From contig JALHQW010000043.1 of assembly GCA_022841745.1 (NCBI GenBank), positions 1-64,000 on the forward strand: a stretch of 64,000 nucleotides of DNA. Reading direction: 5' to 3'. This DNA is from Saprospiraceae bacterium. GTDB lineage: Bacteria; Bacteroidota; Bacteroidia; Chitinophagales; Saprospiraceae. Position numbers and translations under genes: made by a program. Shown piece by piece: positions 2,261 to 59,917 of this stretch. Every line of letters begins with the position of its first letter. Positions within the stretch are counted from its first letter, which is position 1. The notes below the pieces were generated by a model. The model saw only the letters and a program-made list of their open reading frames with translations, did no database searches and was not told where the DNA came from.

Positions 2261-2333
2261 AGGAAATTGGAGATTGGGAAATTGGGAAATTGGAGGAGAT
2301 TGGTTTCTTAATTTCCAATTTCTTTATCTCCTA
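2261..2333. repeat. Tandem-word hairpin (GAAATTG type)
   Basis: The left arm consists of repeated GGAAATTGGAGATTGGGAAA units, the right arm of the complementary AATTTCCAATTTC type. It fills the whole gap between PBP2 and folA, both on the minus strand. The same word type occurs at 29721-29778. Confidence 0.8.
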
Positions 2334-2334
2334 A

Positions 2335-4305
2335 TTAATTCTCCCCCTCTTCCAGCACCTCTTCCACGGGTGCGTCCACGGGGGTATTGTCAACTTGTAT
2401 CGAATCTTGGGAGCCGGGCGACATGCTGACCACCAATTTCTTGGGTTTTGGCTCAATCAGGTTGGCTTCCAGCATTTGTTTTTCACGGTGCTTGCGGCTC
2501 TCGCTGATACTGCCCCGCAGGTATTTCTCCATCAAAAGCGTTGAAATGGGCGCAGCGAACTTGCCGCCGCCACCTGCATTTTCCACATATACAGCAATGG
2601 CAATCTTGGGGTCGTCCACTGGGCCGAAGCCGATGAAGGTGGAGTGGTCTTCACCATGCGGGTTTTGCACCGTGCCTGTTTTGCCCGCAACGGGTAGGTC
2701 AGGTATCTTGGAAGAGCCTGCCGTACCGTGCGCTATCACAGCGGCCATACCATCCACCACTGACGGAAAATAGTAGGAGCCTATGGGCACTTTTATCCGC
2801 TTCCGAAAAGGCTCACGTGGCGGCAATGTCTTGTCACCTTGTTTGAACGCCTTGACGAAGTGCGGAATATAATAATAGCCCCTGTTGGCGATAATGGCCG
2901 CTATGTTGGCCATCTGGATGGTGGTCAACTCGATTTCGCCCTGCCCAATGCCCACGGAGATGATGGTGGGAGAGCGCCAACCGCCCTTATCTTTTGGGTA
3001 CATTTTATTGTAGTACTTGGAGTCGGGCACTCGCCCGGGCTTTTCGCCGGGGAAGTCCACGCCGAGCTTCTGCCCGAAACCCAACTCGTGCAAGTAGTAG
3101 GCCATCGTGTCGAGGCCCTGCGCCGAATTGTAATAGCCGTAGTGGTCCACTATCTGCTTGAAGGTTCGGAAGAAGTAGCTGTTACACGACCATTGCAGCG
3201 CAATACTGATATTGGAGGGGTGCGCATGGCCACGGCACTTGCGCACGTCTCGCCCGCCATTCACGTAGTAGCCACCGCAGGGCCAACCCGTTTCGGCGGT
3301 GATGGCACCCATCTGCATCCCAATCAACCCGACGGATGCCTTGAAGGTGGAGCCGGGCGGGTACGAAGCCATAATGGCTCGATTGAAAAGCGGCTGTGAC
3401 TTGTCGGCGGCAAGTGCAGCATAGTTTCGGCCCCTGTTTTGGTCAATGACCATCAGGTTGGGGTTGTAAGTGGGCGAACTGAGGAAGGCCAAAATCTCGC
3501 CCGTCTTCGGCTCTATGGCCACTACTGCGCCTTTTTTGTTGACCATCAGCGACTCGGCGTAGGCTTGCAGTTCTACGTCAATAGTGGTGATTAGGTCAAG
3601 ACCGGACACTGGCAAGGTGTCCCGCTTGCCATTCTGGAAGCTGCCTACATCACGCCCAAGGTTGTCCTTTAGCACAAAACGAACGCCCTTCACGCCTTTA
3701 AGCTCCTCCTCGTATGCCAGCTCGATGCCGCTTTTTCCGATATAGTCGCCCATCACATACGTGCCTTCGGAGGCTTTGATGTCGGCATCGGTTACTTCCT
3801 GAATATAGCCGAGCATGTGCGCTGCATGATTCACCGGATAGCTTCGGATATTGCGCACCTGCGCAAAAAAGCCGGGGAACTCGTAAATGCTCTCCTGAAA
3901 GAGGGAAAAGGCTACGGGCGATATTTTATCCAAAAAAATAAAGGGCTTTACCCTACTGAAGCGCTTGTCCCGCTTGAAATCCTTGTTAAGCCGAAGTTTG
4001 AACTCCTCTTTGGTGATTCCAAGTAATTGGCAAAACTTGGTGGTGTCCATGCCTGGTTTTACTTGGTTATAGGTCACCATGAGGTCATAAACCGGAGCAT
4101 TGTTGATGAGCAGCTTGCCGTTGCGGTCGTAGATGAGGCCACGGGCGGGGTAGTGGGTCACCTTGCTCATGGCCACGGCATCGGCCCGCCCCCGAAAGCT
4201 GTCGCTCAGCACCTGCAATTGAAAGGCCCGGCCCGCTAAGAGCAGCCCTGCCAGCACGAAAACCAGCAGGAAAACAAATTGCCGTTCTTTGTTCAGTTCT
4301 TCCAT
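2335..4305 (-). CDS. mrdA: Penicillin-binding protein 2 (elongation transpeptidase)
   Basis: Cross-links lateral-wall peptidoglycan as the class B transpeptidase of the rod complex. The N-terminus has a cytoplasmic MEELNKERQF and one membrane helix (FVFLLVFVLAGLLLAG), then a dimerisation domain with ARGLIYDRNGKLL, and a transpeptidase domain with SxxK (GSTFKAS), SxN (SCN) and KTG (AGKTGTVQNP) motifs. At 656 residues the length is normal. The ATG at 4305 is preferred to an in-frame TTG three codons upstream. It follows mreB, mreC and mreD; rodA, the usual next gene, is absent and folA follows instead. Confidence 0.95.
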   Translation of the reverse strand: MEELNKERQFVFLLVFVLAGLLLAGRAFQLQVLSDSFRGRADAVAMSKVTHYPARGLIYDRNGKLLINNAPVYDLMVTYNQVKPGMDTTKFCQLLGITKEEFKLRLNKDFKRDKRFSRVKPFIFLDKISPVAFSLFQESIYEFPGFFAQVRNIRSYPVNHAAHMLGYIQEVTDADIKASEGTYVMGDYIGKSGIELAYEEELKGVKGVRFVLKDNLGRDVGSFQNGKRDTLPVSGLDLITTIDVELQAYAESLMVNKKGAVVAIEPKTGEILAFLSSPTYNPNLMVIDQNRGRNYAALAADKSQPLFNRAIMASYPPGSTFKASVGLIGMQMGAITAETGWPCGGYYVNGGRDVRKCRGHAHPSNISIALQWSCNSYFFRTFKQIVDHYGYYNSAQGLDTMAYYLHELGFGQKLGVDFPGEKPGRVPDSKYYNKMYPKDKGGWRSPTIISVGIGQGEIELTTIQMANIAAIIANRGYYYIPHFVKAFKQGDKTLPPREPFRKRIKVPIGSYYFPSVVDGMAAVIAHGTAGSSKIPDLPVAGKTGTVQNPHGEDHSTFIGFGPVDDPKIAIAVYVENAGGGGKFAAPISTLLMEKYLRGSISESRKHREKQMLEANLIEPKPKKLVVSMSPGSQDSIQVDNTPVDAPVEEVLEEGEN

Positions 4306-4312
4306 TCTCTGC

Positions 4313-4396
4313 AAGGAAAAAGTACAAAGGAAAAAGGAAAAAGAAGGGTAGTAAGTCCCACCACTTTTTACTTTATACTTTTTACTTTGTACTTCT
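4313..4396. repeat. Tandem-word hairpin (AAAGTAC/AAAGGAAA type)
   Basis: The left arm repeats GGAAAAAG and GTACAAAGG units; the right arm repeats CTTTTTACTTTATACTTTTT and CTTTGTACTT. It occupies the gap between mreD and PBP2 inside the elongation operon. The same word family occurs at 12727-12812 and 59835-59917. Confidence 0.8.
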
Positions 4397-4398
4397 AA

Positions 4399-4920
4399 TC
4401 ACTCCTTAGGATTCAACAACAGCTGGAATATCATGATAAACGCCATGCTGACAATAAAGCTGATAATGGTCTTTATCAAAATATTGGCGATGTAAACAAA
4501 AGTGAACGCTTCTACGGAATAGTAGAAAAATATATGTGCGAACAACAAGGTGGAAGCATACTGCGCAAACCAGCCTATGCCCATCATTTTCATGGTTGGG
4601 CTATAGGTCATGTTGTAGCCGCCCCTTGGTTCCAGCACCCTCAGGATAAATGAACGGATGAACCCTGTGAACACGGCAGCGCTGGCATGAACACCCAAGG
4701 TATCGTAAAGGAAATCAACGGTGATGCCAGCCACAAAACCGAGGAATATGACCAAGGTTCTTGGGGTACGCAAAGGCAACAGCAAGATGAAAAGCGGAAA
4801 AACGATGATATGCAGGTAGGGAAAGCTCTCCCAGCCCACACCGATGTTCTTGAAGACAAGGCCCTGCAACAGCACCAAGCTCACAAACCGTACAATATTG
4901 GAAAAAATGGTGTTATTCAT
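4399..4920 (-). CDS. mreD: Rod shape-determining protein MreD
   Basis: A small integral membrane protein of the elongation complex. The 173 residues include about five hydrophobic segments (for example FVSLVLLQGLVFKNIG, LHIIVFPLFILLLPL, LVIFLGFVAGITVDFLYDT and the C-terminal TIISFIVSMAFIMIFQLLL). The G-x-D-x-x-Y-D-T pattern after the third helix is usual for the family. Its start overlaps the end of mreC by 8 bp, indicating translational coupling. Confidence 0.88.
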   Translation of the reverse strand: MNNTIFSNIVRFVSLVLLQGLVFKNIGVGWESFPYLHIIVFPLFILLLPLRTPRTLVIFLGFVAGITVDFLYDTLGVHASAAVFTGFIRSFILRVLEPRGGYNMTYSPTMKMMGIGWFAQYASTLLFAHIFFYYSVEAFTFVYIANILIKTIISFIVSMAFIMIFQLLLNPKE

Positions 4921-5749
4921 CTTCGCTCTTCACGGATTCCTCCAATTGTTCCTGCTCCTGCTTGAAAATATTTCGCACGATATAGGCATGTTGGATATTG
5001 CTCAGCTTCGCAAATGACCTGACCTCAATGGTGAAGAAATTGCTGCCAGGGTCCATCCACAGCTTGTCAACAACGCCAATAGTGATGCCTGGCGGGAACA
5101 TCGTCGAATACCCGCTCGTCTCAATGGTATCTCCCTTGGTCACCGGGGCGTCCTTCGGGATGTTTTCCAAATTAAAAATATGGATATTGTCGCTTTTCCA
5201 GACCAGCGGGCCGAAGTAGTTCTTGTGCCTCACCCTGGCATTGATAATGGCCTGTCGGTGCAGGACGGACATAGCCACCGAATAGTTCTGGGACACCTTT
5301 CGGATGATGCCAACGACCCCATCGTCTGTAACTACACCCGTGTGTGGCCTTATGCCATCCTTTGCCCCTTTGTCAAATGTGATATAATTGTGGTGCTGGT
5401 TGATGGAATTGCGGATGACCTTAGCGTCAAGGAAAGTGTATTTCGGCTGGATGCTATCTGCCCAGGCCGTATCCAAGGGATTTTGCACGTTGATGCCCAG
5501 GTTGGCAAGGCGGTCGAGCAACAGTGAATTCTCCTTTGCCAACCGCTTGTTTTCGTCGTAAAGCTGGAAATACTGGTAGGTGGAAGTGCTCTTCTGTTGG
5601 AGCCAGCCCGTGAATTTGTTCACGGTATTCGTGTAGACCTTTTCCTGGTCGCCATTGTACCTCACCACCAACGAAAAACAGATGACTTCCAGCACGAGAA
5701 AGACGAGGAAGCCGCTCAGTTTTATTAGTAGCTGGACTAAGTTAAACAT
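4913..5749 (-). CDS. mreC: Rod shape-determining protein MreC
   Basis: A periplasmic scaffold that binds PBP2 and activates elongation. From the ATG at 5749 it has 278 residues: a membrane helix (LSGFLVFLVLEVICFSLVV), a coiled coil around FQLYDENKRLAKENSLLLDR, and the double beta-barrel domain with DDGVVGIIRKVSQNYSVAM and the typical GDTIETSGYSTMFPPGI. The open frame extends 15 codons further upstream, but that part (SPITNYQLPIT) is encoded by the tandem-word repeat and is probably not translated. It overlaps mreD by 8 bp. Confidence 0.93.
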   Translation of the reverse strand: MFNLVQLLIKLSGFLVFLVLEVICFSLVVRYNGDQEKVYTNTVNKFTGWLQQKSTSTYQYFQLYDENKRLAKENSLLLDRLANLGINVQNPLDTAWADSIQPKYTFLDAKVIRNSINQHHNYITFDKGAKDGIRPHTGVVTDDGVVGIIRKVSQNYSVAMSVLHRQAIINARVRHKNYFGPLVWKSDNIHIFNLENIPKDAPVTKGDTIETSGYSTMFPPGITIGVVDKLWMDPGSNFFTIEVRSFAKLSNIQHAYIVRNIFKQEQEQLEESVKSEDE

Positions 5750-5819
5750 GGTGATTGGTAACTGGTAATTGGTGATTGGTGACTGGGAAGCCAATCACCA
5801 GTCACCAATCACTAATCAC
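5750..5819. repeat. Tandem-word hairpin (CAATCAC/GATTGGT type)
   Basis: The left arm repeats the heptamer-like unit GTGATTGGTAACTGGTAATT; the right arm repeats CAATCACCAGTCACCAATCA; the loop is only a few bases. It fills the mreB-mreC gap and abuts the mreC start codon. A single arm of the same word lies at 10071-10107. Confidence 0.85.
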
Positions 5820-5821
5820 TA

Positions 5822-6853
5822 CTACACGCTTTTTCTATCAATCAGGAATGAAAAACGGTCGGTGTTTTTCAGTGCGATGCCCGTGCCCCGTACCACGGCA
5901 CGGAGTGGGTCTTCGGCAATGTGAACAGGCAACTTTGTCTTGGCACTGAGGCGCTTATCGAGGCCACGCAGTAAGGCACCGCCCCCTGTCAAGTATAAGC
6001 CCGTCTTGTAGATATCGGCAGCCAATTCAGGTGGCGTGCTTTCCAGTGCCTTCATCACGGCCTCCTCCACCTTGCTGATGGATTTGTCAATGGCCTGCGA
6101 TACCTCGTGGTAAGAAATGGTGATTTGCTTTGGAATACCCGTCATCAAGTCACGGCCATTCACGGCATAGTCTGGTGGTGGGTTAGTCAATTCATGCAGC
6201 GCAGAACCCACATTGATTTTTATCTGCTCAGCGGTACGCTCACCGATGAGGATGTTGTGCGCCCGTTTCATGTAGTCAATAATATCGGCGGTGAACTCGT
6301 CGCCCGCTGTGCGGATGGACTGGTCGCAGACGATGCCGGAAAGGGCGATTACCGCAATCTCCGTTGTGCCGCCCCCAATGTCAATGATAACGTTGCCAAT
6401 AGGCTCCTCCACCTCCAAGCCGATACCAAGGGCAGCGGCCATCGGTTCGTGGATGAGGTAAGTCTCTTTGGAATCAACGTGGTCAGCGGAGTCGAAAACG
6501 GCACGCTTCTCCACTTCGGTGATGCCGGAGGGGATACAGATGACCATTTTCAAGTGGGAAAAAAATCGGCGGCGGTTGCCGATCATGTTGATGAGTCCCT
6601 CAATCATGTTCTCCGCAGCCTGGAAGTCGGCGATAACGCCGTCCCGAAGTGGGCGCACGGTTTTTATGTTCTCGTGGGTCTTCTCGTGCATCTGCATCGC
6701 CTTGTTGCCCACGGCAATGGTTTCGCCCGTGCGCCTGTCAATGGCCACGATGGAAGGCTCGTCCACCACCACTTTGCCATCGCTCATGATGAGCGTATTG
6801 GCAGTACCAAGGTCAATGGCTAGTTCTTGAGTGAAAAAACTGAAGAGTTTCAT
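5822..6853 (-). CDS. mreB: Rod shape-determining protein MreB
   Basis: An actin-like cytoskeletal ATPase that directs lateral wall synthesis; first gene of the mreB-C-D-PBP2 cluster. The 343 residues show the actin-fold phosphate 1 motif (IDLGTANTLI), connect/phosphate 2 (NVIIDIGGGTTEIAVIA), and the adenosine motif (LYLTGGGALLRGLD). The N-terminal SFFTQELAIDLGTAN is the family's usual membrane-proximal start. No promoter matching the Bacteroidota consensus is clear in the 284-bp gap upstream. Confidence 0.97.
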   Translation of the reverse strand: MKLFSFFTQELAIDLGTANTLIMSDGKVVVDEPSIVAIDRRTGETIAVGNKAMQMHEKTHENIKTVRPLRDGVIADFQAAENMIEGLINMIGNRRRFFSHLKMVICIPSGITEVEKRAVFDSADHVDSKETYLIHEPMAAALGIGLEVEEPIGNVIIDIGGGTTEIAVIALSGIVCDQSIRTAGDEFTADIIDYMKRAHNILIGERTAEQIKINVGSALHELTNPPPDYAVNGRDLMTGIPKQITISYHEVSQAIDKSISKVEEAVMKALESTPPELAADIYKTGLYLTGGGALLRGLDKRLSAKTKLPVHIAEDPLRAVVRGTGIALKNTDRFSFLIDRKSV

Positions 6854-7082: not shown

Positions 7083-7135
7083 CAAGTTCCAGTATCCAGT
7101 ATCAAGCATCAAGTATCCAACATCCAGTGCCCCAG
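7083..7135. repeat. Single-arm tandem-word tract (ATCCAGT type)
   Basis: Repeats of TTCCAGTATCCAGTATCAAG and related units abut the M16 peptidase stop codon. No complementary arm is seen. The same word makes a full two-arm hairpin at 20457-20562. Confidence 0.6.
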
Positions 7136-7137
7136 CC

Positions 7138-10070: not shown

Positions 10071-10107
10071 CCTATTCTCCAGTCACCAGTTACCAATCAC
10101 CAACCGC
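10071..10107. repeat. Single-arm tandem-word tract (CAATCAC type) entering a coding end
   Basis: CCAGTCACCAGTTACCAATC and related units lie between the sigma-factor gene and its neighbour. The tract reaches into the sigma-factor gene: its last residues (VGDW) and stop codon are encoded by the repeat units on the minus strand. Confidence 0.6.
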
Positions 10108-11666: not shown

Positions 11667-11750
11667 AGCTTCATTGTTACATGGCTTCATTGTTGCCCGC
11701 ATAACATGTTCCATGATGCCATGAAACAATGAAGCCATAAAACAATGAAA
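11667..11750. repeat. Tandem-word hairpin (CAATGAAA type), copy A
   Basis: The left arm (GCTTCATTGTTACATGGCTT) and right arm (ATGAAACAATGAAGCCATAA) are complementary tandem units. The central part, TTGCCCGCATAACATGTTCC, is nearly identical to the centre of the hairpin at 50936-51062, 39 kb away. It lies between the two rhomboid genes. Confidence 0.85.
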
Positions 11751-12720: not shown

Positions 12721-12726
12721 GCATAA

Positions 12727-12812
12727 AAGGAAAGGGGCTTACCGTTGTTACTTCAGATTTTCAGGAAGGGCCACCCTACTTTTTCCTTTGTACTTCGTAC
12801 TTTTTCCTTTTA
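12727..12812. repeat. Tandem-word hairpin (AAAGGAAA/GTAC type)
   Basis: A short left arm, AAAGGAAAGG, pairs with a right arm built from CTTTTTCCTTTGTACTTCGT and ACTTTTTCCTTTT. It lies between the second rhomboid and the EEP-family gene and shares its word with 4313-4396 and 59835-59917. Confidence 0.65.
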
Positions 12813-16027: not shown

Positions 16028-16137
16028 AAGATAAGTTTCGAGCTACGAGTTTCGAACTACGAGTTATGAGCGGGTAAGCCTCAAGATGCCTTCGAAGCCA
16101 CCATTTCTAACAACTCGAAACTGGCAACTCGAAACTG
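16028..16137. repeat. Tandem-word hairpin (ACTCGAAACT type)
   Basis: The left arm repeats GTTTCGAGCTACGAGTTTCG units; the right arm repeats AACTCGAAACTGGCAACTCG. It lies immediately after the TPR gene. Confidence 0.7.
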
Positions 16138-16169
16138 AAAAAAATAACTTACTGCCTATCATATATTCA

Positions 16170-16250
16170 GCTTCCGGTAGAAAGGAAACGGAAGCGCCTC
16201 ACCCTCGGTGGAAGAACGATGTCTGAGCAATTGGGCATCGTTCTTTTTTT
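16170..16250 (+). terminator. Double stem-loop ending in a strong terminator
   Basis: First stem GCTTCCG (16170-16176) / CGGAAGC (16189-16195). Second stem AAGAACGATG (16212-16221) / CATCGTTCTT (16236-16245), followed by a T run to 16250. The second is a classical rho-independent terminator for the TPR transcript. The two hairpins together, about 110 bp after the TPR gene, could alternatively be the 3' part of a separate small RNA. Confidence 0.75.
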
Positions 16251-16349
16251 GCGCAGCACCTTAGCCATGTCCCCCGCTTGTGTTTGGAACATTTTTTGAA
16301 AGGGAAGTGCGATGGAAATCATCATCCCCGCCATTTTTCAAAAACAACT

Positions 16350-17153
16350 ATGAAAAAACGTAGCTTCCTGTTCCTTGCTGCCAGCCTGGCATTCTTCACC
16401 GCCTGCAACGAGGCTCCCAACAAAGTTATCAGTATCAACCCAGAAGAATTGACCACCGAAGATGAGGTTAAGATTGGGAAGGCATTTCAGTTGGCGCTGG
16501 AATCCAACGACGACGCTTTCAATATCCTTGACAAGTCGGAGTACCCTGAAGCTTATGCCTATGTGGAGCAGTTGTTCGACGCCATGCTGAACACCGCACC
16601 AGTGCAGCGCCGACTTGAGTTCAACTGGTCGGTGAAAATCATCCACGACGACGACGTACGCACGGCTTTTTTCTTGCCGGGCGGCCATTTTTATGTCTAT
16701 ACTGGTTTATTGAAATACCTTGACTCGGAAAGCGAACTGCTCGGAGTCATTGGCCACGAGATGTACTACGTGGACACCGACCTGCTCATCAACCGCATCA
16801 AGCAAGAATACGGTGGCGTCATGCTCGGTGACCTGCTACTGGAAAACACAGTGCCAGAGCTGCCCGATTATGCGGAGGAAGTGCCGCACCTGACGTTTAG
16901 CGAATCAAAAGTCGTGCTGGCCGATTCTTTTGCCGTTGAAATGATTTGCCCATTCCTGTACGAGCCATCGGGCATCAAAAAGATTTTGGAAAGGGCAAAG
17001 GAGGAGGAAGTGCCACCGCTTTGGTTGGAATCACGACAGGGCAAGTACGATACCCGCATCCAGCACCTGAGCGCAGAAGTCGCCAATTGCGGTCTGCCAG
17101 GCGTTACCAATGAGGAGAATTACGGGAGGTTTAAGGTGGAGTATTTGCCTTGA
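16350..17153 (+). CDS. M48-like lipoprotein with degenerate zinc motif
   Basis: A 267-residue predicted lipoprotein: MKKRSFLFLAASLAFFTAC with the lipobox cysteine at residue 19. The region FFLPGGHFYVYTGLLKYLDS followed by LLGVIGHEMYY is laid out as in M48 metalloproteases (PGGxxxVxTGLL, then HExxH), but the second histidine is replaced by tyrosine (HEMYY). The third ligand region is around FSESKVVLADSFAVEM. It is therefore either inactive or uses other ligands. The ATG at 16350 is chosen for the complete lipoprotein signal; the open frame extends 24 codons further upstream. Confidence 0.75.
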   Translation: MKKRSFLFLAASLAFFTACNEAPNKVISINPEELTTEDEVKIGKAFQLALESNDDAFNILDKSEYPEAYAYVEQLFDAMLNTAPVQRRLEFNWSVKIIHDDDVRTAFFLPGGHFYVYTGLLKYLDSESELLGVIGHEMYYVDTDLLINRIKQEYGGVMLGDLLLENTVPELPDYAEEVPHLTFSESKVVLADSFAVEMICPFLYEPSGIKKILERAKEEEVPPLWLESRQGKYDTRIQHLSAEVANCGLPGVTNEENYGRFKVEYLP

Positions 17154-17173
17154 CAATCATTTTCAACAAAATA

Positions 17174-17220
17174 AAAAGGGCTTTTGAGTGGGAATTAACC
17201 GCTCAAAAGCCCTTTTCTTT
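17174..17220. terminator. Bidirectional terminator
   Basis: A perfect 15-bp stem, AAAAGGGCTTTTGAG (17174-17188) and CTCAAAAGCCCTTTT (17202-17216), with T runs on both strands. It lies between the convergent M48-like gene and gcvT and should stop transcription from both sides. Confidence 0.9.
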
Positions 17221-17236
17221 TGCTCATTACATAAAA

Positions 17237-18343
17237 TCACCCCTTATAAAACGGCAGCTTCACCACCTTCGCCGCCAGCTTCTTCCCTCCTGCAACCACC
17301 TGAATATCAGTCCCTTCCTTCGCAAACGCAGTGGCCACATAGCCCATGCCGATGGGCTTGTCCAAAGAAGGTGATTGCGTACCAGAGGTCACTTTGCCGA
17401 TGACGTTGCCCTCCATGTCCTCAATGGGGTAATCGTGGCGGGGCACCCGGCGGTCGAGCACGTCGAAGGCGACGAGCTTGCGGCTCAGGCCTGCCTCTTT
17501 TTGCTGGCGCAAAAACCCGGCGTCGTTGAAATCGCCCTTGTTCAACTTGGTAATCCAGCCGAGGCCAGCCTCCAGTGGGGAGGTGGTATCGTCAATATCG
17601 TTGCCATAAAGCGCAAAGCCCATTTCGAGGCGGAGTGTGTCCCGTGCGCCAAGGCCGATTGGTTGAATTCCGAAATCTTTGCCTGCGGCAAAAACGGCAT
17701 CCCAAAGGCGCACCATGTCCTCATTTTTTACATAAATCTCAAAGCCACCTGAGCCAGTATAGCCTGTAGCGCTCACCAGCACGTTGTCAATGCCAGCGAA
17801 ACGGCCCTTGGCAAACGTGTAGTACTTCATGCCGTGCAGGTCAATATCAGTAAGGGATTGCAGTGCCTCGGCAGCCTTGGGGCCTTGCACGGCGAGCAGC
17901 CCCGTATCGTCGGAGATGTTTATCATGCGGGCCTCGTAGCTGTTGTGCTTCGAAATCCAGTCCCAGTCCTTGTCAACATTGCTGGCGTTCACCACGAGCA
18001 TGAAGGCTTGCTCACCCTCGGCGCACATGTCCTCTGGCAAGCGGTAAACGAGCAGGTCGTCCACGATGCCACCTTGGCCATTGGGCAGGCAGGAGTACTG
18101 CACCTCGCCTATGTCCAATTTGCTGGCATCGTTGGAGGTGACTTGCTGTACGAGGTCGAACGCCTGCTTTCCCCGCACGATGAACTCGCCCATGTGCGAT
18201 ACGTCAAATACGCCGACACCTTTGCGCACGCAATCGTGCTCCTCCCGGATGCCCGCATACGAGATGGGCATGTTATAGCCGGCAAACTCGGCCATTTTTG
18301 CCCCAAGGGCTATGTGTTTTTCCGTCAATGGTGTGGATTTCAT
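17237..18343 (-). CDS. gcvT: Glycine cleavage system T protein (aminomethyltransferase)
   Basis: Transfers the methylene group from aminomethyl-lipoyl H-protein to tetrahydrofolate, releasing ammonia. The 368 residues match the family length. Visible elements are [20 protein letters not shown] at the N-terminus, the folate-site region [30 protein letters not shown], and the C-terminal [18 protein letters not shown] plus [10 protein letters not shown]. The other glycine cleavage genes are not nearby. LipB at 44941 supplies the octanoyl group for lipoylated proteins such as the H protein. Confidence 0.96.
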
Positions 18344-18443
18344 AATTGTTTGATTGTTAAATGGTTAGATTGTTCTTGGATACTGGTTTCTGGATGCTGG
18401 ATACTTGGGGGATACCGTCAACCGTTGTCCGTAAACCGATTTA

Positions 18444-20456
18444 TCACTTCGGTTCCACGACAGTCATTTCCTCAATCACGTCGCCGATTTCGAGTTTGTG
18501 TACGATGTCCATGCCCTCGGCTACCTTGGCGAAGATGGTGTGTTTGCCATCCAAGTGCGGGGCAGGGCTATGGGTAATGAAGAACTGAGCAGACTCTGTG
18601 TTGTTGCCCGCAGAAGCCATGCCCACGTAGCCCTCCTGGTCGTAATGGAGGTAGGGCAGTTCCGAGCGGATAGCGTAGTTGGGGCCGCCGTAGCCATCGC
18701 CACGGGAGCAGCCGCCCTGTGCCACGAAGTTCGGTTCTACCCGGTGGAAGTTTTTGCCATTATAGTATTTGTCCTTTATCAGTTCCAGGAAGTTAGATAC
18801 CGTGCCCGGAGCCGAGTCCACCAGCAGGTCGAGGGTAATGACTCCCTTTTTGGTCTTGATGTTCACCCTGGAGCCGGGCTTCAGGTCCGCGATTAATTTC
18901 CAGTCAATCTTATGGCCAAACTTGGCCTTGGTCGGTGCGCTGTACTTCTGCCCTTTGAAATACTCAATCGTCTGCTTCAACTCGTTGTATGTCTCGATTT
19001 CTTGCGGCAGACGCAGCTTCTTCAAGGCATTTTCCAACACCACCACACTGTCAAACACCGACTTGAAATTAGCAGTGGAATCCCGCATGGCTATGGCTGC
19101 TTCGGCCACCATGCCAGGGTCACCCGTGCTGATGGCATCAACGAAACACTCGGCTAATTCTCGCCTTGCCGTAGCGCCGCCGCCAAAAAAACCGTTGAAA
19201 TTGCGCATGGAAGCGATGTTGGCAAGCGCCTTGACACTGGCCGTTCGCACGGCGATGAACTGTGACGGATAGCCCGCATCACGGATATAACGATAGTTCC
19301 AGCCGTAGTGCCCAAGTGCTTCCAATGCCGCTGCCTTTTCATACGGCGAGGCAGCATTCTCGAACTTGCGCTTGATTTCCCAGTTGAGGTATTTGCGGGT
19401 TTCTTCGAAGCCGTAGGGCAGGTGTTTGGAGGCGGCAGCGTACATGGCCATGGCCACTTCCCATTTTCGGCCGGGTTGCTTCGCAATTTCCCAATAGGTA
19501 CCGGCCTCTTCTGCCGTACCGTGTTTTAGGAAATAATCGGCGGCCACCCTTGCCACGGGTAGGCTGGGGTCGGAGAGGGCATTGTAGGCCGTTTTACTCC
19601 CAATTGCATAATCAAAATTGACAAGGGCCCGCAGGATATTGCACTTCACCCGATAGTCCCGCTCGATATTATACTGGTACAGTAGGGCATTGGCTGCTCG
19701 CTCGGTCTTGGTCTTGCCAAGGGCAATGGCCAGCACCATGCGCACCCGATAGTCCTCTTCTCTTGCCAGCGCTGGGGCGATGAGGCTGTCGCCATTGGTC
19801 AGGTCAATCTTTTTGGCACGGGAAAGGTAGTTGGCCCCAACCAGCCGCACATCGGTTGGGTACCTGGAATTGGTAGCAAAATCGAGCATCTTGGCTGTGC
19901 CTGTAGGCGACACCGAGTCCCGTAGGGCGAAGCGGTAGATGCCCCATGCCTGGCCCGTCAGCAGCGCCGTGTCCTTTAGGGTATAGGTTGTGATATTGGC
20001 CAAATTATCGAGCATGGCTTTATTGCCGCACTTCCCGATGGCCTCCATGATGGCAGCGTTCACGTTTTTGTAAACGCCTGCCGTGTCGCCCCGGTCGAAG
20101 CCCTCCAGCAGCAGCCGCTGCGCTTTTATGTTGCCGATTTGCCCCAAGGAATAGGCGGCTGCGATACGCACCTCTTCTTCGATGTCGTTGCGGAGCAAAC
20201 CGCCAAGGCTATCAATGGCCGTGCTGTCTTTAGTAGAAGCAAAGGCAATGGCGGCCATATAGCGCAGTGTGGCGTCCTTGCTCTTGAAATAGCGCAGGAG
20301 GCTGTCCGTCTGGCTGCGGTCTTTCAGGTCATGTACAGTCTGGTAGGTCGGGTTGGTATAGTCCAAATGCACGCCCATCGCCTTCTCCTCGGAGGGCGGT
20401 ACGCATTGCGTGAAAAAGCCGATTGCTAAGAATAGTAAGGGTAGATATTTGTTCAT
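18444..20456 (-). CDS. HEAT-repeat lipoprotein with C-terminal cyclophilin peptidyl-prolyl isomerase domain
   Basis: A 670-residue fusion. The N-terminus is a lipoprotein signal (LPLLFLAIGFFTQC). Residues about 40-480 are helical HEAT-like repeats (EVRIAAAYSLGQIGNIKAQR, DYRVRMVLAIALGKTKTERA, AVRTASVKALANIASM). Residues about 510-665 are a cyclophilin domain with KNFHRVEPNFVAQGG, the catalytic-site pattern FHR...FVAQGG, SAQFFITHSPAPHLDGKHTI and FAKV. It probably assists folding of envelope proteins outside the cytoplasmic membrane, using the repeats to bind clients (inference). It is co-directional with the NlpC-like gene. Confidence 0.9.
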   Translation of the reverse strand: MNKYLPLLFLAIGFFTQCVPPSEEKAMGVHLDYTNPTYQTVHDLKDRSQTDSLLRYFKSKDATLRYMAAIAFASTKDSTAIDSLGGLLRNDIEEEVRIAAAYSLGQIGNIKAQRLLLEGFDRGDTAGVYKNVNAAIMEAIGKCGNKAMLDNLANITTYTLKDTALLTGQAWGIYRFALRDSVSPTGTAKMLDFATNSRYPTDVRLVGANYLSRAKKIDLTNGDSLIAPALAREEDYRVRMVLAIALGKTKTERAANALLYQYNIERDYRVKCNILRALVNFDYAIGSKTAYNALSDPSLPVARVAADYFLKHGTAEEAGTYWEIAKQPGRKWEVAMAMYAAASKHLPYGFEETRKYLNWEIKRKFENAASPYEKAAALEALGHYGWNYRYIRDAGYPSQFIAVRTASVKALANIASMRNFNGFFGGGATARRELAECFVDAISTGDPGMVAEAAIAMRDSTANFKSVFDSVVVLENALKKLRLPQEIETYNELKQTIEYFKGQKYSAPTKAKFGHKIDWKLIADLKPGSRVNIKTKKGVITLDLLVDSAPGTVSNFLELIKDKYYNGKNFHRVEPNFVAQGGCSRGDGYGGPNYAIRSELPYLHYDQEGYVGMASAGNNTESAQFFITHSPAPHLDGKHTIFAKVAEGMDIVHKLEIGDVIEEMTVVEPK

Positions 20457-20562
20457 TGATGCTATTGATGCTGGATGCTGGATGCTGGATGCTGGATACT
20501 TGATGGGTGCCTGTTAAGCAGTATCTAGTATCCAGTATCAATAGTATCCAGCATCCAGTAAG
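20457..20562. repeat. Tandem-word hairpin (ATCCAGC/GATGCTG type)
   Basis: The left arm is GATGCTGGATGCTGGATGCT repeated; the right arm is TATCCAGCATCCAGT and TAGTATCCAGTATCAATAGT. It fills the gap between the NlpC-like and the HEAT-cyclophilin genes. Single arms of the same word occur near 7083 and 44905. Confidence 0.85.
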
Positions 20563-21437: not shown

Positions 21438-21506
21438 ATTTAAGATAGACGATTTATGTAGTGCCGGGTAATCTGAAATCTTAAATCGTCTATCTTAAAT
21501 GTTAAA
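21438..21506. repeat. Long inverted repeat (GATTTAAGATAGACG type)
   Basis: GGATTTAAGATAGACGATTT pairs with TAAATCGTCTATCTTAAATG across a loop of about 25 nt. It lies directly downstream of the PBP1A stop codon. It resembles the other intergenic hairpins, though its arms are less obviously tandem. Confidence 0.75.
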
Positions 21507-27410: not shown

Positions 27411-27956
27411 TTACTCCTGAACGTCCCCTTTCTGGCTTTCGTACCTGCGGATGTATTCTTCCACGATGTCGCCAAGGATGTCCTTAAGGTAGGCTTTTTC
27501 CATGCGGGCGATGATTTTCAGCTTGTTGAGCTTTTCCTTGTCGAAAGTAACGGTAAGGCGACGGGTGCCGGTGATTTGGTCTTCCTCCACAGCTCCCCGC
27601 TCCACGGTGCGGCGGATGAGCATGTCCAAGCCGCCAAGGGGCTTGCGGCGGTGCGCTTGTTGGTGGAAGGGTTGGGCCTTTGTTGCAGCTGTTGCCGCTT
27701 CTCGCTCCTGTATCTGCTCCTCGAAGGACTCTTGCATGGCTTCATGCAACAGCGAGTCGAGGTCGGTAGTGAAGTTCTTGCGGTGGGAGGATTTGGCTGC
27801 GGCAGGCCGGCCTGCGCCGGGGCGCATCTCGTCAGGGTTGGCCCCTTCCAAAAAGGTAGTGCCCTGCCCGCTCTCCTTGTTGTGGTCAATGGAGAACAGG
27901 CTTTCGAGTCCGTCCGTGAATTTCTTTTTGCTCACAATAGTGAAATTAATTGTCAT
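27411..27956 (-). CDS. Ribbon-helix-helix-like partner of orphan ParA
   Basis: A 181-residue protein encoded downstream of parA on the same strand. The C-terminal part RRLTVTFDKEKLNKLKIIAR plus MEKAYLKDILGDIVEEYIRRY has the strand-helix-helix pattern of RHH DNA-binding proteins. The N-terminal two thirds is low-complexity and carries three similar short segments: KKKFTDGLESLF, RKNFTTDLDSLL and RKPLGGLDMLI. These resemble the N-terminal ParA-contacting motif of ParB (RGLDALL); that match is inference. The ATG at 27956 is preferred, because the five codons upstream (MTNDP) are encoded by the adjoining repeat. Confidence 0.7.
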   Translation of the reverse strand: MTINFTIVSKKKFTDGLESLFSIDHNKESGQGTTFLEGANPDEMRPGAGRPAAAKSSHRKNFTTDLDSLLHEAMQESFEEQIQEREAATAATKAQPFHQQAHRRKPLGGLDMLIRRTVERGAVEEDQITGTRRLTVTFDKEKLNKLKIIARMEKAYLKDILGDIVEEYIRRYESQKGDVQE

Positions 27957-28020
27957 TGGGTCGTTGGTCAATTCGCTCTAAAAAAGCTCAAACCCTGACT
28001 GATGACCAATGGCAAATGAC
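27957..28020. repeat. Tandem-word hairpin (CAATGAC type)
   Basis: Left arm ATTGGGTCGTTGGTCAATTC, right arm GATGACCAATGGCAAATGAC. It fills the gap between parA and its partner gene. The same word occurs at 45698-45763. Confidence 0.75.
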
Positions 28021-29720: not shown

Positions 29721-29778
29721 TAGAAATTGGGAAATTGAGAAATTACGAGACTCATTGAATTTCTCAATTTCCCACTCC
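29721..29778. repeat. Tandem-word hairpin (GAAATTG type)
   Basis: Left arm TTAGAAATTGGGAAATTGAG, right arm TTGAATTTCTCAATTTCCCA. It fills the gap between ferritin and the next gene and uses the same word as 2261-2333. Confidence 0.8.
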
Positions 29779-30424: not shown

Positions 30425-30488
30425 GGCTATTTATTTAGCAATCGGCTATTGGACTCGGCCAATAACCAATAGCTAAATACAAATAGCC
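30425..30488. repeat. Tandem-word hairpin (CAATAGC type)
   Basis: Left arm GGCTATTTATTTAGCAATCG and GCTATTGG; right arm CCAATAACCAATAGCTAAAT and ACAAATAGCC; a six-base loop. It lies in the lgt leader, just after the predicted transcription start. Confidence 0.85.
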
Positions 30489-38058: not shown

Positions 38059-38138
38059 GGAGCAAATATAGAAGAAGGTTTTTGTGGTTTCAGGTTTCAG
38101 GTTTCAGGCAGGTTTTGAAAATACAAAAATTCAATGGC

Positions 38139-44776: not shown

Positions 44777-44940
44777 CACCTTTTTGCTTGGCTGAAATAG
44801 GGCTTTGATTTTTCATCCATTTGTCTATCTTCGCATCGCTTTTTGAAAAACGGGCATCCGGTCTTCAATAAAGGCCCCGAAAAGAGCATGGTTGCGGGCT
44901 GCCATCCAGCATCAAGCATCCAGTACCCGGGCATCCAGCA

Positions 44941-45697: not shown

Positions 45698-45763
45698 TTG
45701 CCATTGGTCATTGGTCATTGTGGTCGTTTTACCCTCAATGACCAATGACTTTGATGACCAATG
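45698..45763. repeat. Tandem-word hairpin (CAATGAC/TTGGTCA type)
   Basis: Left arm TGCCATTGGTCATTGGTCAT; right arm CTCAATGACCAATGACTTTG and ATGACCAATGAC. The unit is the heptamer TTGGTCA. Lies between lipB and the next gene on the same strand. Confidence 0.85.
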
Positions 45764-46205: not shown

Positions 46206-46251
46206 GATAGTTGGCCATTAGCTATTGGCTGTTGGCTATTGAAGCGTAAAT

Positions 46252-48339: not shown

Positions 48340-48405
48340 GTAACACGGACTGACAGTCCGTGCGCTAATGTTTGCCATGCAACACGGACTGGCAGCCCGT
48401 GTTAC
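48340..48405. repeat. Nested palindromes (CACGGACTG type)
   Basis: CACGGACTG-A-CAGTCCGTG is a perfect palindrome with a one-base centre. The near-copy CACGGACTG-G-CAGCCCGTG follows 21 bp later. The outer ends GTAACACGG and CCCGTGTTAC also pair, so the transcript can form either two small hairpins or one long one. It lies in the leader of the arginine decarboxylase gene, 14 bp before the ATG. Confidence 0.85.
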
Positions 48406-49822: not shown

Positions 49823-49938
49823 GATTTCGGAATAGGTTCCCTACGGGAATGACAAATGCAGATTTCGGATTCAGATGAATAGTCGAGCCAATCCGAAATC
49901 CACATTTGTCATTCCCGTAGGGAACCTAATCCGCAATC
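49822..49938. repeat. Long inverted repeat with CCCGTAGGGAACC core
   Basis: Left arm GATTTCGGAATAGGTTCCCT followed by ACGGGAATGACAAATG; right arm AATCCGAAATCCACATTTGT followed by CATTCCCGTAGGGAACCTAA. The arms are over 40 bp and largely complementary. It lies between the convergent speA and epimerase genes. A single copy of the right arm recurs at 58718-58766. Confidence 0.85.
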
Positions 49939-50935: not shown

Positions 50936-51062
50936 TGTTGGATTGCTTCATGGTTTCATTGCTTCATGGTTTCATTGTTTCATTGTTTCATTGTTGCCCG
51001 CATGACATGTGCCGTGACAATGAAACAATGAAACAATGAAACCATGAAGCAATGAAACCATG
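50936..51062. repeat. Tandem-word hairpin (CAATGAAA type), copy B
   Basis: Left arm GGATTGCTTCATGGTTTCAT and repeated TTTCATTG units; right arm repeated CAATGAAACAATGAAACAAT and ACCATGAAGCAATGAAACCA. Its centre TTGCCCGCATGACATGTGCC is nearly identical to that of 11667-11750. It is the longest of the set and fills the gap between the GNAT and epimerase genes. Confidence 0.9.
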
Positions 51063-51063
51063 A

Positions 51064-52941: not shown

Positions 52942-53068
52942 TTGTTGATTGTTGGATTGTTTTATTGTTAGAATTGTTTGGGGCCTTGTTGTTGCATTTC
53001 AGCCTCATAAATCATGATTGACCTGTACGGCCAACAATCAAACAATTCAGCAATTAAACAATCATCCA
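52942..53068. repeat. Tandem-word hairpin (ACAATCAA type)
   Basis: Left arm GTTGATTGTTGGATTGTTTT and ATTGTTAGAATTG; right arm CCAACAATCAAACAATTCAG and CAATTAAACAATCATCCAAT. It separates ktrB from ktrA. Confidence 0.85.
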
Positions 53069-53069
53069 A

Positions 53070-54857: not shown

Positions 54858-54877
54858 TTATTTTTTCTATAAAAAAT

Positions 54878-56129: not shown

Positions 56130-56156
56130 GTTGGGAAGGTTTTCCTTAATTATTTC

Positions 56157-57449: not shown

Positions 57450-57458
57450 GTTTTCGTT

Positions 57459-57839: not shown

Positions 57840-58065
57840 CTTTTCCGATTTGGTTCACTTCAGATTGCGCATCCAGAAACGCTTTGTATTCCTCGTCGCT
57901 CCAAGTGGGCCCACTTAGCAGTAGCTTTTGAAGGTTGGTAGGCTCCTTCTCCTGCTGGTCAATGTCCTGCATGACCGCTTTTACTAGTCGCTTTTTTTCC
58001 CGAAGGGGCAACTGACTAATAAACGCAAGCAATTGCTCGAATTTTAAGTCCACGCTCAGTCTCAT
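57826..58065 (-). CDS. Antitoxin of the VapC-like toxin
   Basis: A 79-residue partner immediately upstream of the toxin. The N-terminal half (MRLSVDLKFEQLLAFISQLP, then REKKRLVKAVMQDI) could form the dimerising part; the C-terminal TWSDEEYKAFLDAQSEVNQI resembles the toxin-wrapping tail of such antitoxins. Its ATG overlaps the stop of fur (ATGA, 58062-58065). Confidence 0.78.
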   Translation of the reverse strand: MRLSVDLKFEQLLAFISQLPLREKKRLVKAVMQDIDQQEKEPTNLQKLLLSGPTWSDEEYKAFLDAQSEVNQIGKDAAN

Positions 58066-58544
58066 GATTCGCTTATTTTTTGAGCCGTCCGCTCACAGGC
58101 CCCATTGCACTCCCCATACAGGTTCAGCGCATGGTAGTTGACCTTGAACTTGAGCAGTTCGCCCATCATGTCCTTGATTTGCTGGATGCGGGGGTCGCAG
58201 AACTCGAACACCCTGCCACAGTTCTCGCAGATGAGGTGGTCGTGCTGCTTATAGCCGTAGGATTTCTCGTAGAGTGCGAGGTTCTTGCCGAACTGGTGCC
58301 GCTTCACGAGGTCGCAGGTCACGAGCAGGTCGAGGGTATTGTAAACCGTGGCCCGGCTCACCCGGTAGCTCTGGTTTTTCATGTGGATATAGAGCGCCTC
58401 GGCGTCGAAGTGGTCGCTGCGGCGGTAAATCTCTTCCAAAATAGCAAAGCGCTCCGGCGTCTTGCGGAAGGCATTTTGTTCGAGGTGGCCAGCGAACAGG
58501 CGCTTTACTTCCTCGATGATAGCTTCTTCATTTCTCACACCCAT
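58062..58544 (-). CDS. fur: Fur-family metal-dependent repressor
   Basis: 160 residues: a winged-helix N-terminus (RKTPERFAILEEIYRRSDHF) and the metal-sensing part HFDAEALYIHM and HDHLICENCGRVFEF (HxH and CxxC). The C-terminal GECNGACERTAQ contains another Cys pair. Target genes are unknown; ferritin in this window is a plausible one, but no operator was seen. A TACCTTTG box (minus strand, 58570-58577) fits the -7 consensus. Fur next to purA is common in Bacteroidota (as I recall); here a toxin-antitoxin pair lies between them. Confidence 0.93.
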   Translation of the reverse strand: MGVRNEEAIIEEVKRLFAGHLEQNAFRKTPERFAILEEIYRRSDHFDAEALYIHMKNQSYRVSRATVYNTLDLLVTCDLVKRHQFGKNLALYEKSYGYKQHDHLICENCGRVFEFCDPRIQQIKDMMGELLKFKVNYHALNLYGECNGACERTAQKISES

Positions 58545-58717
58545 GTTGGGGATTTATGAAATTAAAGAGCAAAGGTAGTGAAATTGCTATTGGCCGTTGG
58601 CTTTTGACCATTGGCTTTTTTATTGGCGAAAAATGTCCAATTTCGCACGTGCAAGAAGCCCCGAAAAATAATTGGGGGTGGTTTCAGGACACCCGATTGG
58701 CGCCGAAGCATGTACCC

Positions 58718-58766
58718 AATCCGAAATCCGCATTTGTTATTCCCGTAGGGAACCTAATCAGAAATC
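58718..58766. repeat. Single copy of the CCCGTAGGGAACC repeat arm
   Basis: AATCCGAAATCCGCATTTGT followed by TATTCCCGTAGGGAACCTAA is almost identical to 49893-49935. Here only one arm is present. It ends a few bases before the rnpA ATG and would otherwise extend that frame upstream (NPKSAFVIPVGNLIRN). Confidence 0.75.
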
Positions 58767-58771
58767 CAATT

Positions 58772-59227
58772 ATGCCAGATTTCACCTTCAAAAAAGCAGA
58801 GCGACTTAAAAGCCTGAAAGTCATCGGCGGCCTGTTTAAGGATGGGCAGTCGTTCGGTGTCTATCCGTTGCGGTTGTTCTGGTCGGCCCAGCCAATGCCG
58901 GAGGGTGGCGCACCCGTGCAGTTCACGGTCAGCGTGCCGAAGAAGAACTACAAATCGGCGGTGGCCCGCAACCGCATCAAACGGAAGGTGCGGGAGGCAT
59001 GGCGGCTGAACAAACACCGCCTCTACCGTCGCCTTGAGGGCAGCCAGCAGCAGTACGCCTGCATGGTGCTCTACACAGGCAAGGAAGACCTGCCTTCGGA
59101 GCAGATTGACAAGGCGATGCAGACGATGATACATTTGTTTTATAAGAAGAATATTGCGACCTCACCCCCGGCCCCGCTCCAACGAGAAGAGGGGGCAAGC
59201 CCCGGTATTACCCCCCTCTCCTCTTAG
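58772..59227 (+). CDS. rnpA: Ribonuclease P protein component
   Basis: Protein subunit that assists the RNase P RNA in 5' tRNA maturation. 151 residues: MPDFTFKKAERLKSLKVI, then GAPVQFTVSVPKKNYKSAVA and RNRIKRKVREAWRLNKH, the RNR signature. The C-terminus runs into a repeat: residues from about 130 (TSPPAPLQREEGASPGITPL) are encoded by repeat sequence and form a tail foreign to the family. rpmH (ribosomal protein L34), often next to rnpA, is not in the window. Confidence 0.95.
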   Translation: MPDFTFKKAERLKSLKVIGGLFKDGQSFGVYPLRLFWSAQPMPEGGAPVQFTVSVPKKNYKSAVARNRIKRKVREAWRLNKHRLYRRLEGSQQQYACMVLYTGKEDLPSEQIDKAMQTMIHLFYKKNIATSPPAPLQREEGASPGITPLSS

Positions 59228-59275
59228 AGCCTGTCCCGCATAGCGGGAAGCGGGGTCGGGGGTGAGGCCGAACAA
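59157..59275. repeat. GC-rich inverted repeat overlapping the rnpA 3' end
   Basis: Outer arms CCTCACCCCCGGCCCCGCTC and GAAGCGGGGTCGGGGGTGAG are nearly complementary; the inner part AACGAGAAGAGGGGGC pairs with CCCCCCTCTCCTCTTA. It contributes the last 22 codons and the stop of rnpA. Confidence 0.8.
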
Positions 59276-59320
59276 CCATTATGCAGCGAATGACCTATTT
59301 TCCTGAAATTGATTTTTACT

Positions 59321-59836
59321 ATGCAAAAAGCGATACTAACACTGGCTTTCACCTTGTTGACCTCGTTGGCCTTCGGCCAAAAATACCTCCAGCTCGAACG
59401 CCTGCACAGCACCAAGACGAAGAAATACCAGCCCGGCGACGAAATCACCTTTCGCCTCAACAACGGCCAGTGGTACACCCGTGTCATTGACGATATCCAC
59501 TACGAGCGGCAGTTCCTCTACTTCGCCAATGGCGGCCATGTGGATTTGGACAGCATCGTGGCCTTCCGCAGCTATACGCCCGCCAAGTGGTCGAGGCCAT
59601 TGGGCAACCAGATGATTAATTTCTCTGCGGTTTGGCTGCTCTATACCTTTGTTGACCAGGCCGTGGCTGGCGACGGCTTCGATACTGGTGTGTTGCTCAC
59701 AGTGCCCGTCACCAGTTCAGGCTTGGGCTTTGCCTTGAAAAAACTCTTCAAGCACCGTACCTACCGCATCCATCGCAACCGGGAAGGGGAAGTGACCAAG
59801 TGGCGGCTGCGGGCGCTGGATTTGACGGTTAATTAA
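59321..59836 (+). CDS. Secreted protein of unknown function
   Basis: 171 residues from the ATG at 59321 with a signal peptide (AILTLAFTLLTSLAFGQ). The mature domain contains a KYQPGDEITFRLNNGQWYTR module, a small beta-rich segment like those that set or describe surface properties, then a hydrophobic patch (INFSAVWLLYTFVDQAV) and a basic C-terminal part. No family is recognised with confidence. Position after rnpA is probably unrelated. Confidence 0.7.
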   Translation: MQKAILTLAFTLLTSLAFGQKYLQLERLHSTKTKKYQPGDEITFRLNNGQWYTRVIDDIHYERQFLYFANGGHVDLDSIVAFRSYTPAKWSRPLGNQMINFSAVWLLYTFVDQAVAGDGFDTGVLLTVPVTSSGLGFALKKLFKHRTYRIHRNREGEVTKWRLRALDLTVN

Positions 59837-59917
59837 AAGGAAAAAGTAGAAAGTACAAAGGAAAAAGTGGGGTAGCACGCCTCGCTTTTTACCTCTAACT
59901 TTGTATTCTTTACTTGC
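59835..59917. repeat. Tandem-word hairpin (AAAGTAC/AAAGGAAA type)
   Basis: Left arm AAAAGGAAAAAGTAGAAAGT; right arm CTTTTTACCTCTAACTTTGT and ATTCTTTACTT. The same word family as 4313-4396 and 12727-12812. Lies between the secreted protein and the nucleotidyltransferase-like gene. Confidence 0.7.

Follow-up and report, generated by a model that had tools for sequence, protein, structure and literature searches.

Word-hairpins in the window

The stretch analysed here (the window) comprises 64,000 nucleotides (nt) of a Saprospiraceae bacterium, positions 1 to 64,000 of contig JALHQW010000043.1 (assembly GCA_022841745.1), which is contig 43 of a 178-contig genome of 8,428,107 bases. The genes for MreB, MreC, MreD and PBP2 are located at 2335-6853 (MreD being assigned by position), and the MreB is 97-99% identical to MreB of seven metagenome-assembled genomes labelled Saprospiraceae, Saprospirales or Bacteroidota. 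Intergenic gaps of the window contain inverted repeats whose arms are tandem runs of one short word, called word-hairpins below, as well as single tracts of such words. Word-hairpins are largely established as a real and genome-wide family; most have a G-rich 5' arm, and comparison with 13 further genomes of the same genus (congeners; labels such as G005) shows different words at the same sites in some of them. Rfam models gave no match to the window at gathering score, and a tRNA search of it found none.

Inverted-repeat and tandem scores were compared with 300 dinucleotide shuffles per gap at 15 of the 16 loci named in a preliminary description of this DNA, and separately with mononucleotide shuffles at 27957. 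Direct reading found related words at all 16, as had been described, and 13 clearly beat the shuffles as inverted repeats (13 of the 15 were matched by at most 2/300); the loci at 12727 (16/300), 59835 (14/300) and 27957 (28/300) are weak. Tandem scores were matched by at most 3/300 shuffles at 13 of the 15 loci, the others being 30425 (26/300) and 49822 (27/300). The gap that separates a dihydrofolate reductase-like gene from the PBP2 gene mrdA is filled by a word-hairpin of GGAAATTG words (2255-2330, arms 2255-2281 and 2304-2330; inverted repeat 2/300, tandem period 8, 0/300), one of AAAGGAAA/AAAGTAC words lies in the gap before mrdA (4313-4394; 0/300; GTGAGAG-type words or none in congeners) and one of TGGTRAY words in the mreB-mreC gap (5751-5819; 0/300). 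Further along are word-hairpins of TTCATTG words (11670-11749; 0/300), whose spacer GCCCGCATAACATG resembles by eye that at 50948, of GAGTTTCGA words with a 59-nt spacer (16034-16136; 1/300), of GGATGCT words (20458-20548; 0/300), with ATTTAAGATAGACG arms (21438-21500; 0/300), of GGGAAATTGAG words (29728-29774; 0/300), of CTATTGG words (30432-30479; inverted repeat clear, 0/300, tandem unexceptional, 26/300) and of CATTGGT words (45707-45749; 0/300). The longest, of GTTTCATT words, has perfect 47-nt arms (50948-51063; 0/300), and one of ATTGTT words (52945-53057; 0/300) has the same words in G007 and G010 and similar ones in G005 and G008. The weak members consist of AAAGGAAA and CTTTTTCCTTTGTAC words (12724-12812; inverted repeat 16/300, tandem 2/300), CATTGGTCA words (27950-28015; 28/300) and AAAGGAAA/AAAGTA words (59844-59915; inverted repeat 14/300, tandem 0/300). 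Between convergent genes, a 49-nt inverted repeat (49823-49938; inverted repeat 0/300, tandem 27/300) combines CGGATTT words with an extra dispersed sequence mirrored in both arms, which are mostly this different sequence amid the words. This sequence, CATTTGTCATTCCCGTAGGGAACCT, stands at mirror positions of the two arms and recurs, slightly altered, in a single-arm CAATCCG tract at ~58700-58770.

Single tracts are found upstream of mreB (7088-7128; TGGATAC-type words, C-rich on the + strand; wordless in G001 and G005, GGTTTTTG-type words in G008 and G009), at 10079-10102 (CCAGTCA words), as two neighbours at 18344-18405 (ATTGTTAG, then TGGATAC words), at 38086-38108, which is (GGTTTCA)3, at 44904-44940 (ATCCAGC words, by direct reading, directly 5' of an ATG), at 46211-46241 (TTGGCTA words), in a divergent gap at 58586-58619 (GCTTTTGACCATTG unit) and at 60655-60688 (CAATCCG words).

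Extent of the family

Unless another scope is given, counts refer to a main sample of 1.664 Mb of the 8.43 Mb genome with 1079 predicted genes, called with a purpose-made simple finder and not a standard annotator. Intergenic tandem tracts were taken at a score of at least 14 with periods of 4-12 allowed, excluding low-complexity tracts and those lacking a gene on both sides, and hairpins were counted in gaps of 25 to 900 nt. Among the 133 tracts found, 79 have period 7, 50 period 8 and 4 period 10, with no other period. The proposed word unit of 7-9 bp narrows to 7 or 8 (129/133), a unit of 9 not being seen in tracts of this sample. The 323 gap hairpins include 85 whose arms are periodic at 7 or 8, the word-hairpins, 4 periodic at the control periods 5, 6, 9 and 10, and 206 non-periodic ones. 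In a smaller sample of 864 kb (the window and pieces of five contigs), 48/486 gaps have a tract with a score of at least 16, compared with 0/486 after one shuffle per gap. The suggestion of a genome-wide family is borne out by these counts, and extrapolation gives ~430 word-hairpins in the whole genome.

An arm of at least 16 nt is shared with another hairpin by 67/85 word-hairpins. Among the 104 shared-arm pairs, 14 share a spacer 8-mer and 90 share none. A motif search of the 85 spacers gave likelihoods exceeding those of shuffles. The idea that a common loop core is what moves was considered and rejected: GGCAC/GTGCC is found in 14/85 spacers against 3.6 expected, the best shuffled 5-mer reaches 13, and there is no universal core. 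In a scan of 80 mreB loci from a wider group, for which the gene finder was the one trained on the window's genome and gene calls are rough outside the genus, 55 intergenic tracts were found in 24/80 loci, 40/55 with period 7-8. The exact GGTGATT hairpin was detected in 1/296 genomes of a phylum sample, its own; the sample contains no other member of the genus, so this count does not map the distribution.

Location relative to genes

Word-hairpins have a density of ~228/Mb in intergenic DNA compared with 3.6/Mb in coding sequence (near-matched thresholds), and the median distance from tract to nearest gene end is 6 nt. They occupy 61/618 co-directional, 17/132 convergent and 5/156 divergent gaps, and divergent gaps are depleted relative to both co-directional (Fisher p=0.006) and convergent ones (p=0.003). 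For tracts, the deficit in divergent gaps is not significant (13/169, p=0.13). The gap types given earlier for the 16 window loci, 15 co-directional and 1 convergent (49822), are correct. The intergenic enrichment proposed in the preliminary description stands, but co-directional gaps are occupied no more often than convergent ones, and the absence of two-arm forms from divergent gaps is true of the window and not of the genome sample.

Polarity of the arms

In 71/84 unbalanced hairpins (p=8e-11), and in 22/23 hairpins with a score of at least 25, the 5' arm carries the G excess. When one hairpin is counted per arm family, 22 are G-first and 6 are not (p=0.004), and by keto content the 5' arm is the richer in 68 cases compared with 16. 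In the window, G exceeds C in the 5' arm at 14/15 loci, 11667 being balanced. The exact GGTGATT two-arm pattern (GGTGATTGGTGATT-spacer-complement) has 8 G-first matches at at least 5 loci of the whole genome and 0 in the opposite order, and 15/40 period 7-8 tracts at the wider-group mreB loci are usable for polarity, all 15 being G-inward. Because a hairpin reads alike on both strands, this polarity is independent of gene or replication direction.

Relative to adjoining genes, the G-rich strand is antisense before open reading frames (ORFs) and sense after stops, as seen for 57/68 hairpin arms. Lone tracts follow the same rule in 40/45 cases (16/19 beside stops, 24/26 beside starts), 5/50 having been dropped as far from, or about equally near, both genes. 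Mere 5'UTR (untranslated region) composition was rejected as an explanation: tract-free gaps have C over G before starts (0.233 vs 0.153) and are balanced after stops (0.201 vs 0.213), which could account for the start side only.

Word turnover at fixed sites

The comparison of sister strains proposed earlier as a way to see words swap was made here between sister species, and did find different words in the same gaps. In the mreB-mreC gap, the TGGTRAY words of the window are replaced in congeners by AATGATG, CAGTTGG, GATGGCT, GGTTAAAT or other words, or there is no hairpin. Within 170 nt 3' of mreB, a hairpin with a score of at least 15 is present at 9/24 loci examined, and 9/9 are G-first. 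Orthologous gaps gave 92 pairs, drawn from 28 gaps of the window (gaps >800 nt excluded); the relative has an element in 18/42 pairs when the window does, compared with 8/50 when it does not. Words are common to 7 of the 18 pairs occupied on both sides. Reading of congener gaps by eye is incomplete for ~16028-20562, and the pair counts use the full table. Some sites keep their words, among them 52945 (ATTGTT) and, as judged by eye, 49823 (CGGATTT); at the latter, G005, G008 and G010 have CGGATTT words without the extra dispersed sequence. When mreB-mreC spacers are aligned, that of G008 scores 7.0 against the G010 spacer in reverse complement and -1.5 against it in forward orientation; this is one of three pairs compared.

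Word-hairpins inside proteins

Five word-hairpins lie wholly within predicted ORFs, and 4/5 are G-first. A single hybrid histidine kinase holds two of them, the first within its HisKA stretch and the second in the segment that separates the receiver domain from the HTH domain. The third belongs to an outer-membrane receptor with a TonB plug, the fourth, which is C-first and of the CAGTCC family, to a repeat protein, and the fifth lengthens the C-terminus of a KdsC-type phosphatase. The receptor loop was compared in 11 genomes including the window's own. It is short and wordless in G002, G011, G004 and G012 (whose proteins share 72-75% identity with the own one), has GGATTTC words in both arms in G006, GGGATGA words in G000 and G001, a CAGTTGG left arm and a CAATCCG right arm in G005, words on the right side only in G008, and word-like or degenerate sequence in G013 and G003. 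The arms of G000, G001, G005 and G006 are in frame. From this comparison, words would have been gained at the loop, not lost. The own kinase has a long HisKA insertion that recurs in similar form in G010; the one in G008 is shorter, and the other 11 closest homologues are short at this place (closest homologues being compared, with orthology not proven). Gene ends, stop codons and transcription boundaries are thus not needed for word-hairpins. A gene at C6:137446-141027 of the own genome contains multiple CAGTCC-type inserts in frame, together with a long (GSPQS)n linker.

Proposed origin and alternatives

We give about even odds (a probability of roughly 0.5) to the reading that word-hairpins are DNA palindromes of non-adaptive origin, which slippage lengthens, snap-back template switching homogenises and copying spreads between loci, with no selected RNA function; their function and copying agent are inferred. 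Replication slippage would first lengthen a tract in steps of 7 or 8 nt. The new strand would then snap back so that one arm templates the other, giving complementary arms and a spacer that can flip, and possible footprints of this step are seen. In the passages concerned, template switching between inverted repeats is described as homogenising arms and inverting spacers (Abraham and Hazkani-Covo, PMC8604942), and the reverse-complement match of the G008 and G010 spacers is what such an inversion would be expected to leave. The perfect 47-nt arms and the mirror insert at 49823-49938 may reflect arm homogenisation, with which they are compatible. For RNA genes, it has been proposed that intrastrand switching makes its corrections towards the 5' base; G-C and U-A pairs could become enriched in this way if direction and strand are conserved (Monttinen and Loytynoja, PMC8794818). 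A snap-back tolerating G.T and not A.C, with correction to the 5' base, would drive A-T to G-C and C-G to T-A. Because this drive would be equal from either strand, conservation of the strand would be unneeded and the polarity would be independent of genes; the outcome would be G-rich 5' arms on both DNA strands, irrespective of adjoining genes. In word-hairpin arm pairs, G-C exceeds C-G by 739 to 236 and T-A exceeds A-T by 717 to 570. Differences between units of a tract are transitions in 46% of cases compared with 33% expected from composition, an excess that is not decisive because ordinary mutation favours transitions too. In the third step, for which the pattern itself is observed, arm sequences are common to several loci, so that a limited set of words recurs, and an occupied site may gain a new word, apparently arm by arm. 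Selection would act as a mere filter, with intergenic spacers tolerated, divergent ones less often, and protein loops or linkers rarely, if the frame is kept.

In favour of this reading are the period of 7 or 8, the G-first rule in gaps and inside ORFs, the differing words at the mreB-mreC gap and at the receptor loop, the scarcity of T-runs, the lack of a G.U preference, and arms that are shared far more often than spacers. Several observations weigh against it. Orthologous gaps are correlated in whether they hold an element (p=0.0055), possibly a sign of function. For identical arms to recur at many loci, an inter-locus copying is needed that no proposed step explains, and an insertion boundary with target duplication was not found. 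Non-word hairpins are likewise G-first (119 vs 51), without a T excess (81 vs 107), so the polarity rule is not special to word-hairpins, and 13 word-hairpins are C-first, including the CAGTCC and AAATCAT families. The predicted excess of T over A in the 5' arm is weak (47 vs 29 hairpins, p=0.05) and not significant at one hairpin per family (15 vs 10, p=0.42). The G008/G010 spacer inversion is one of three pairs, was spotted by eye beforehand and equals the best of 2000 shuffles. Gain of words at the receptor loop can only be inferred because the receptor tree is unrooted. At the wider-group mreB loci, 12/55 tracts have period 9 or 10, so the period rule is looser outside the own genome.

The strongest alternative, to which we give perhaps half the credence of the reading above, is a non-autonomous mobile family resembling miniature inverted-repeat transposable elements or REPINs, in which a transposase copies the whole hairpin via a single-stranded form and words drift later. 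REP/REPIN elements are hairpins scattered through intergenic DNA, alike in their arms and variable in their spacers, and their fixed family sequence is tied to a Y1 transposase gene. Shared arms with variable spacers are found here too, and the arm sharing of 67/85 hairpins, the spacers shared in some families (14/104 pairs) and the in-frame word-hairpins where other congeners are wordless all fit mobility, as do nine Y1-transposase matches (PF01797) in the genome. However, these nine loci (~3.3 kb each) have no period 7-8 tract with a score of at least 12, only two weak ones at 11 and 11.5, so that, unlike in REP/REPIN, a Y1 link is lacking. Most shared-arm pairs (90/104) have no common spacer 8-mer, dozens of different words are hard to fit with one sequence-specific enzyme, and a single site can have arms of two different words, as in the receptor loop. 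Searches of Y1 neighbourhoods and for reverse transcriptases linked no mobilising enzyme to word-hairpins, the latter giving one RVT_1 match in the genome and no lead. The earlier idea of selfish tandem-hairpin DNA fits better than an RNA role, although no mobilising enzyme was found for it.

Selected RNA elements, that is, intercistronic stabilisers or processing or attenuation hairpins, are an unlikely explanation. The closeness of tracts to gene ends, the depletion of word-hairpins in divergent gaps and the correlated presence across orthologous gaps are in their favour, as are the highly stable RNA folds, at -38 to -76 kcal/mol, predicted for the hairpins that the own genome and six congeners have in the mreB-mreC gap. 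Intrinsic terminators were rejected, as a T-run follows only 1/97 word-hairpin sides, compared with 39/231 for other hairpins, and the distinction from T-run terminators made in the preliminary description is thereby upheld. Selection at the RNA level was rejected on the stem mismatches in co-directional gaps, read in the coding direction: word-hairpins have 53 G.U and 68 A.C, thus no G.U excess, whereas other hairpins have 78 G.U and 49 A.C (Fisher p=0.007 for the difference). Words and stem lengths change among congeners, convergent gaps are just as often occupied, three Phaeodactylibacter loci with gaps of 41-49 nt have no hairpins, and 4/5 hairpins within ORFs have the same polarity. The suggested mRNA-stability or intercistronic role is not supported, in view of the in-frame hairpins, the mismatches and the gap counts. 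With few T-runs and no G.U preference, comparison of the sequences favours a DNA-level origin, and the RNA hairpins may still have an effect.

Two further explanations are very improbable. Repeats that form G-quadruplexes, the proposal made for the heptamers of Xanthomonas and Nostoc, would share location and polarity rule with the present tracts, in so far as these are set out in the pertinent passages of Rehm et al. (2015, PMC4692102), but for most words they are largely refuted by the sequence, as four GGG runs are found in only 11/129 tracts, fewer than four GG runs in 52/129, and words such as GTTTCATT contain no GG. Interstitial telomeric fusions provide an analogy for G-rich repeats joined head to head. 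Telomere-like repair scars, in which a break gains G-rich repeats at its two 3' ends before these are joined, would agree with the G-rich strand running 5' to 3' from each flank to the centre, including in 40/45 lone tracts and in some gaps whose two sides have different words; against them, two arms can agree exactly even where the order of words is irregular (the perfect 47-nt arms), which is not expected from independent additions, the G001 receptor-loop spacer resembles by eye the wordless G012 loop, and no templating enzyme was found in the genome apart from the one RVT_1 match.

Relation to known repeats

Short tandemly repeated repetitive (STRR) heptamers of heterocystous cyanobacteria are tandem and comprise several words per genome. 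The comparison with heptamer repeats made at the outset proved apt, in location and polarity, for those of Xanthomonas and Nostoc as far as the published passages go (PMC4692102). The closest known repeats, the GGGAATC heptamers of two Xanthomonas and the GGGGA(C/T)T heptamers of Nostoc PCC 7120, have a G-rich strand that is antisense ahead of starts and sense beyond stops; in the relevant passages they are mostly intergenic and tandem, rare between divergent genes, and form 70 and 75 inverted pairs of convergent order in the two Xanthomonas and few in Nostoc (Rehm et al. 2015, PMC4692102). They usually lie between gene pairs that are the same in both of two species, though their length and sequence vary; intragenic repeats are also reported, and the discussion there centres on quadruplexes, no function having been found (PMC4692102). 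The present tracts are alike in their tandem heptamers, intergenic enrichment and polarity rule. They differ in having many words, where one word type was studied in those passages, in having period 8 as well as 7, and, unlike GGGNATC or GGGGAYT, in mostly lacking GGG runs for quadruplexes. Those passages describe neither an exchange of words at orthologous sites nor in-frame hairpins whose relatives are wordless, both of which are seen here.

TAACTGA direct repeats have been described from Beggiatoaceae, cyanobacteria and five Bacteroidetes as lying near start codons with strain-specific histories; the sections drawn on give 169 sets in the main genome, one of them indirect, and related heptamers as rare (MacGregor 2015, PMC4679880). 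Such arrays resemble the present ones as intergenic heptamers, and CAGTTAG-type words here resemble the reverse complement of TAACTGA. Perfect TAACTGA pairs were not found in the 1.664 Mb, and a TAACTGA-type word is dominant in 1/129 tracts (C8:70907-70945, imperfect). Rickettsia palindromic elements form several families of ~150 bp with a conserved peptide ORF, in frame in proteins and between genes (PMC10969869), the two settings also seen here; tandem words are a feature of the present palindromes that the corresponding text on Rickettsia does not mention. A description of hairpin-forming multi-word heptamers in Bacteroidota was not found in titles and abstract openings, a coverage outside which most subscription journals lie.

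Other repeats in the genome

A dispersed palindrome that is not word-built, GTAACACGGACTG.CAGTCCGTGTTAC, is located at 48340-48405 of the window, in C2 near 73850 and in C3 near 44879 and 117969. A long palindrome with the core GTCATCGCCGAAGGCGACCTGCGAC is common to C2:2676 and C3:2600 of the own genome, and a perfect 23-nt inverted repeat between convergent genes (window 62392-62437) is terminator-like and not word-built. From C2:56122-56834 and on (L003), seven ACGTTTACTAAACTTCAAAAGTTTAGTAAACGT hairpins follow each other at 116-129 nt spacing with related spacers, one of which is partly N. Three GCATAGCATA-type pentamer arrays at 47 nt spacing lie beside a Y1-transposase match (L198, C51 near 18232).

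Significance

What is new here is that the polarity, reported before from the unrelated Xanthomonas and Nostoc, extends to coding sequence and to words unable to form quadruplexes, and that words are exchanged at fixed sites. Polarity in non-quadruplex words and inside proteins weakens quadruplexes and gene ends as general explanations and points to DNA copying. Carrying the slippage and snap-back reading further, we tentatively propose, as something more doubtful than the reading itself, that G-first polarity is a fossil of G.T-tolerant snap-back replication. This would be a mutational engine in some bacteria, continually overwriting spacers with locally homogenised 7-8-nt words, carrying words between loci and sometimes writing in-frame peptides into protein loops or linkers, without a transposase or a selected function. 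A natural series for reading template switching, slippage and inter-locus copying is provided by sister species whose words differ at the same site, and in-frame word-hairpins are a possible route to new protein segments.

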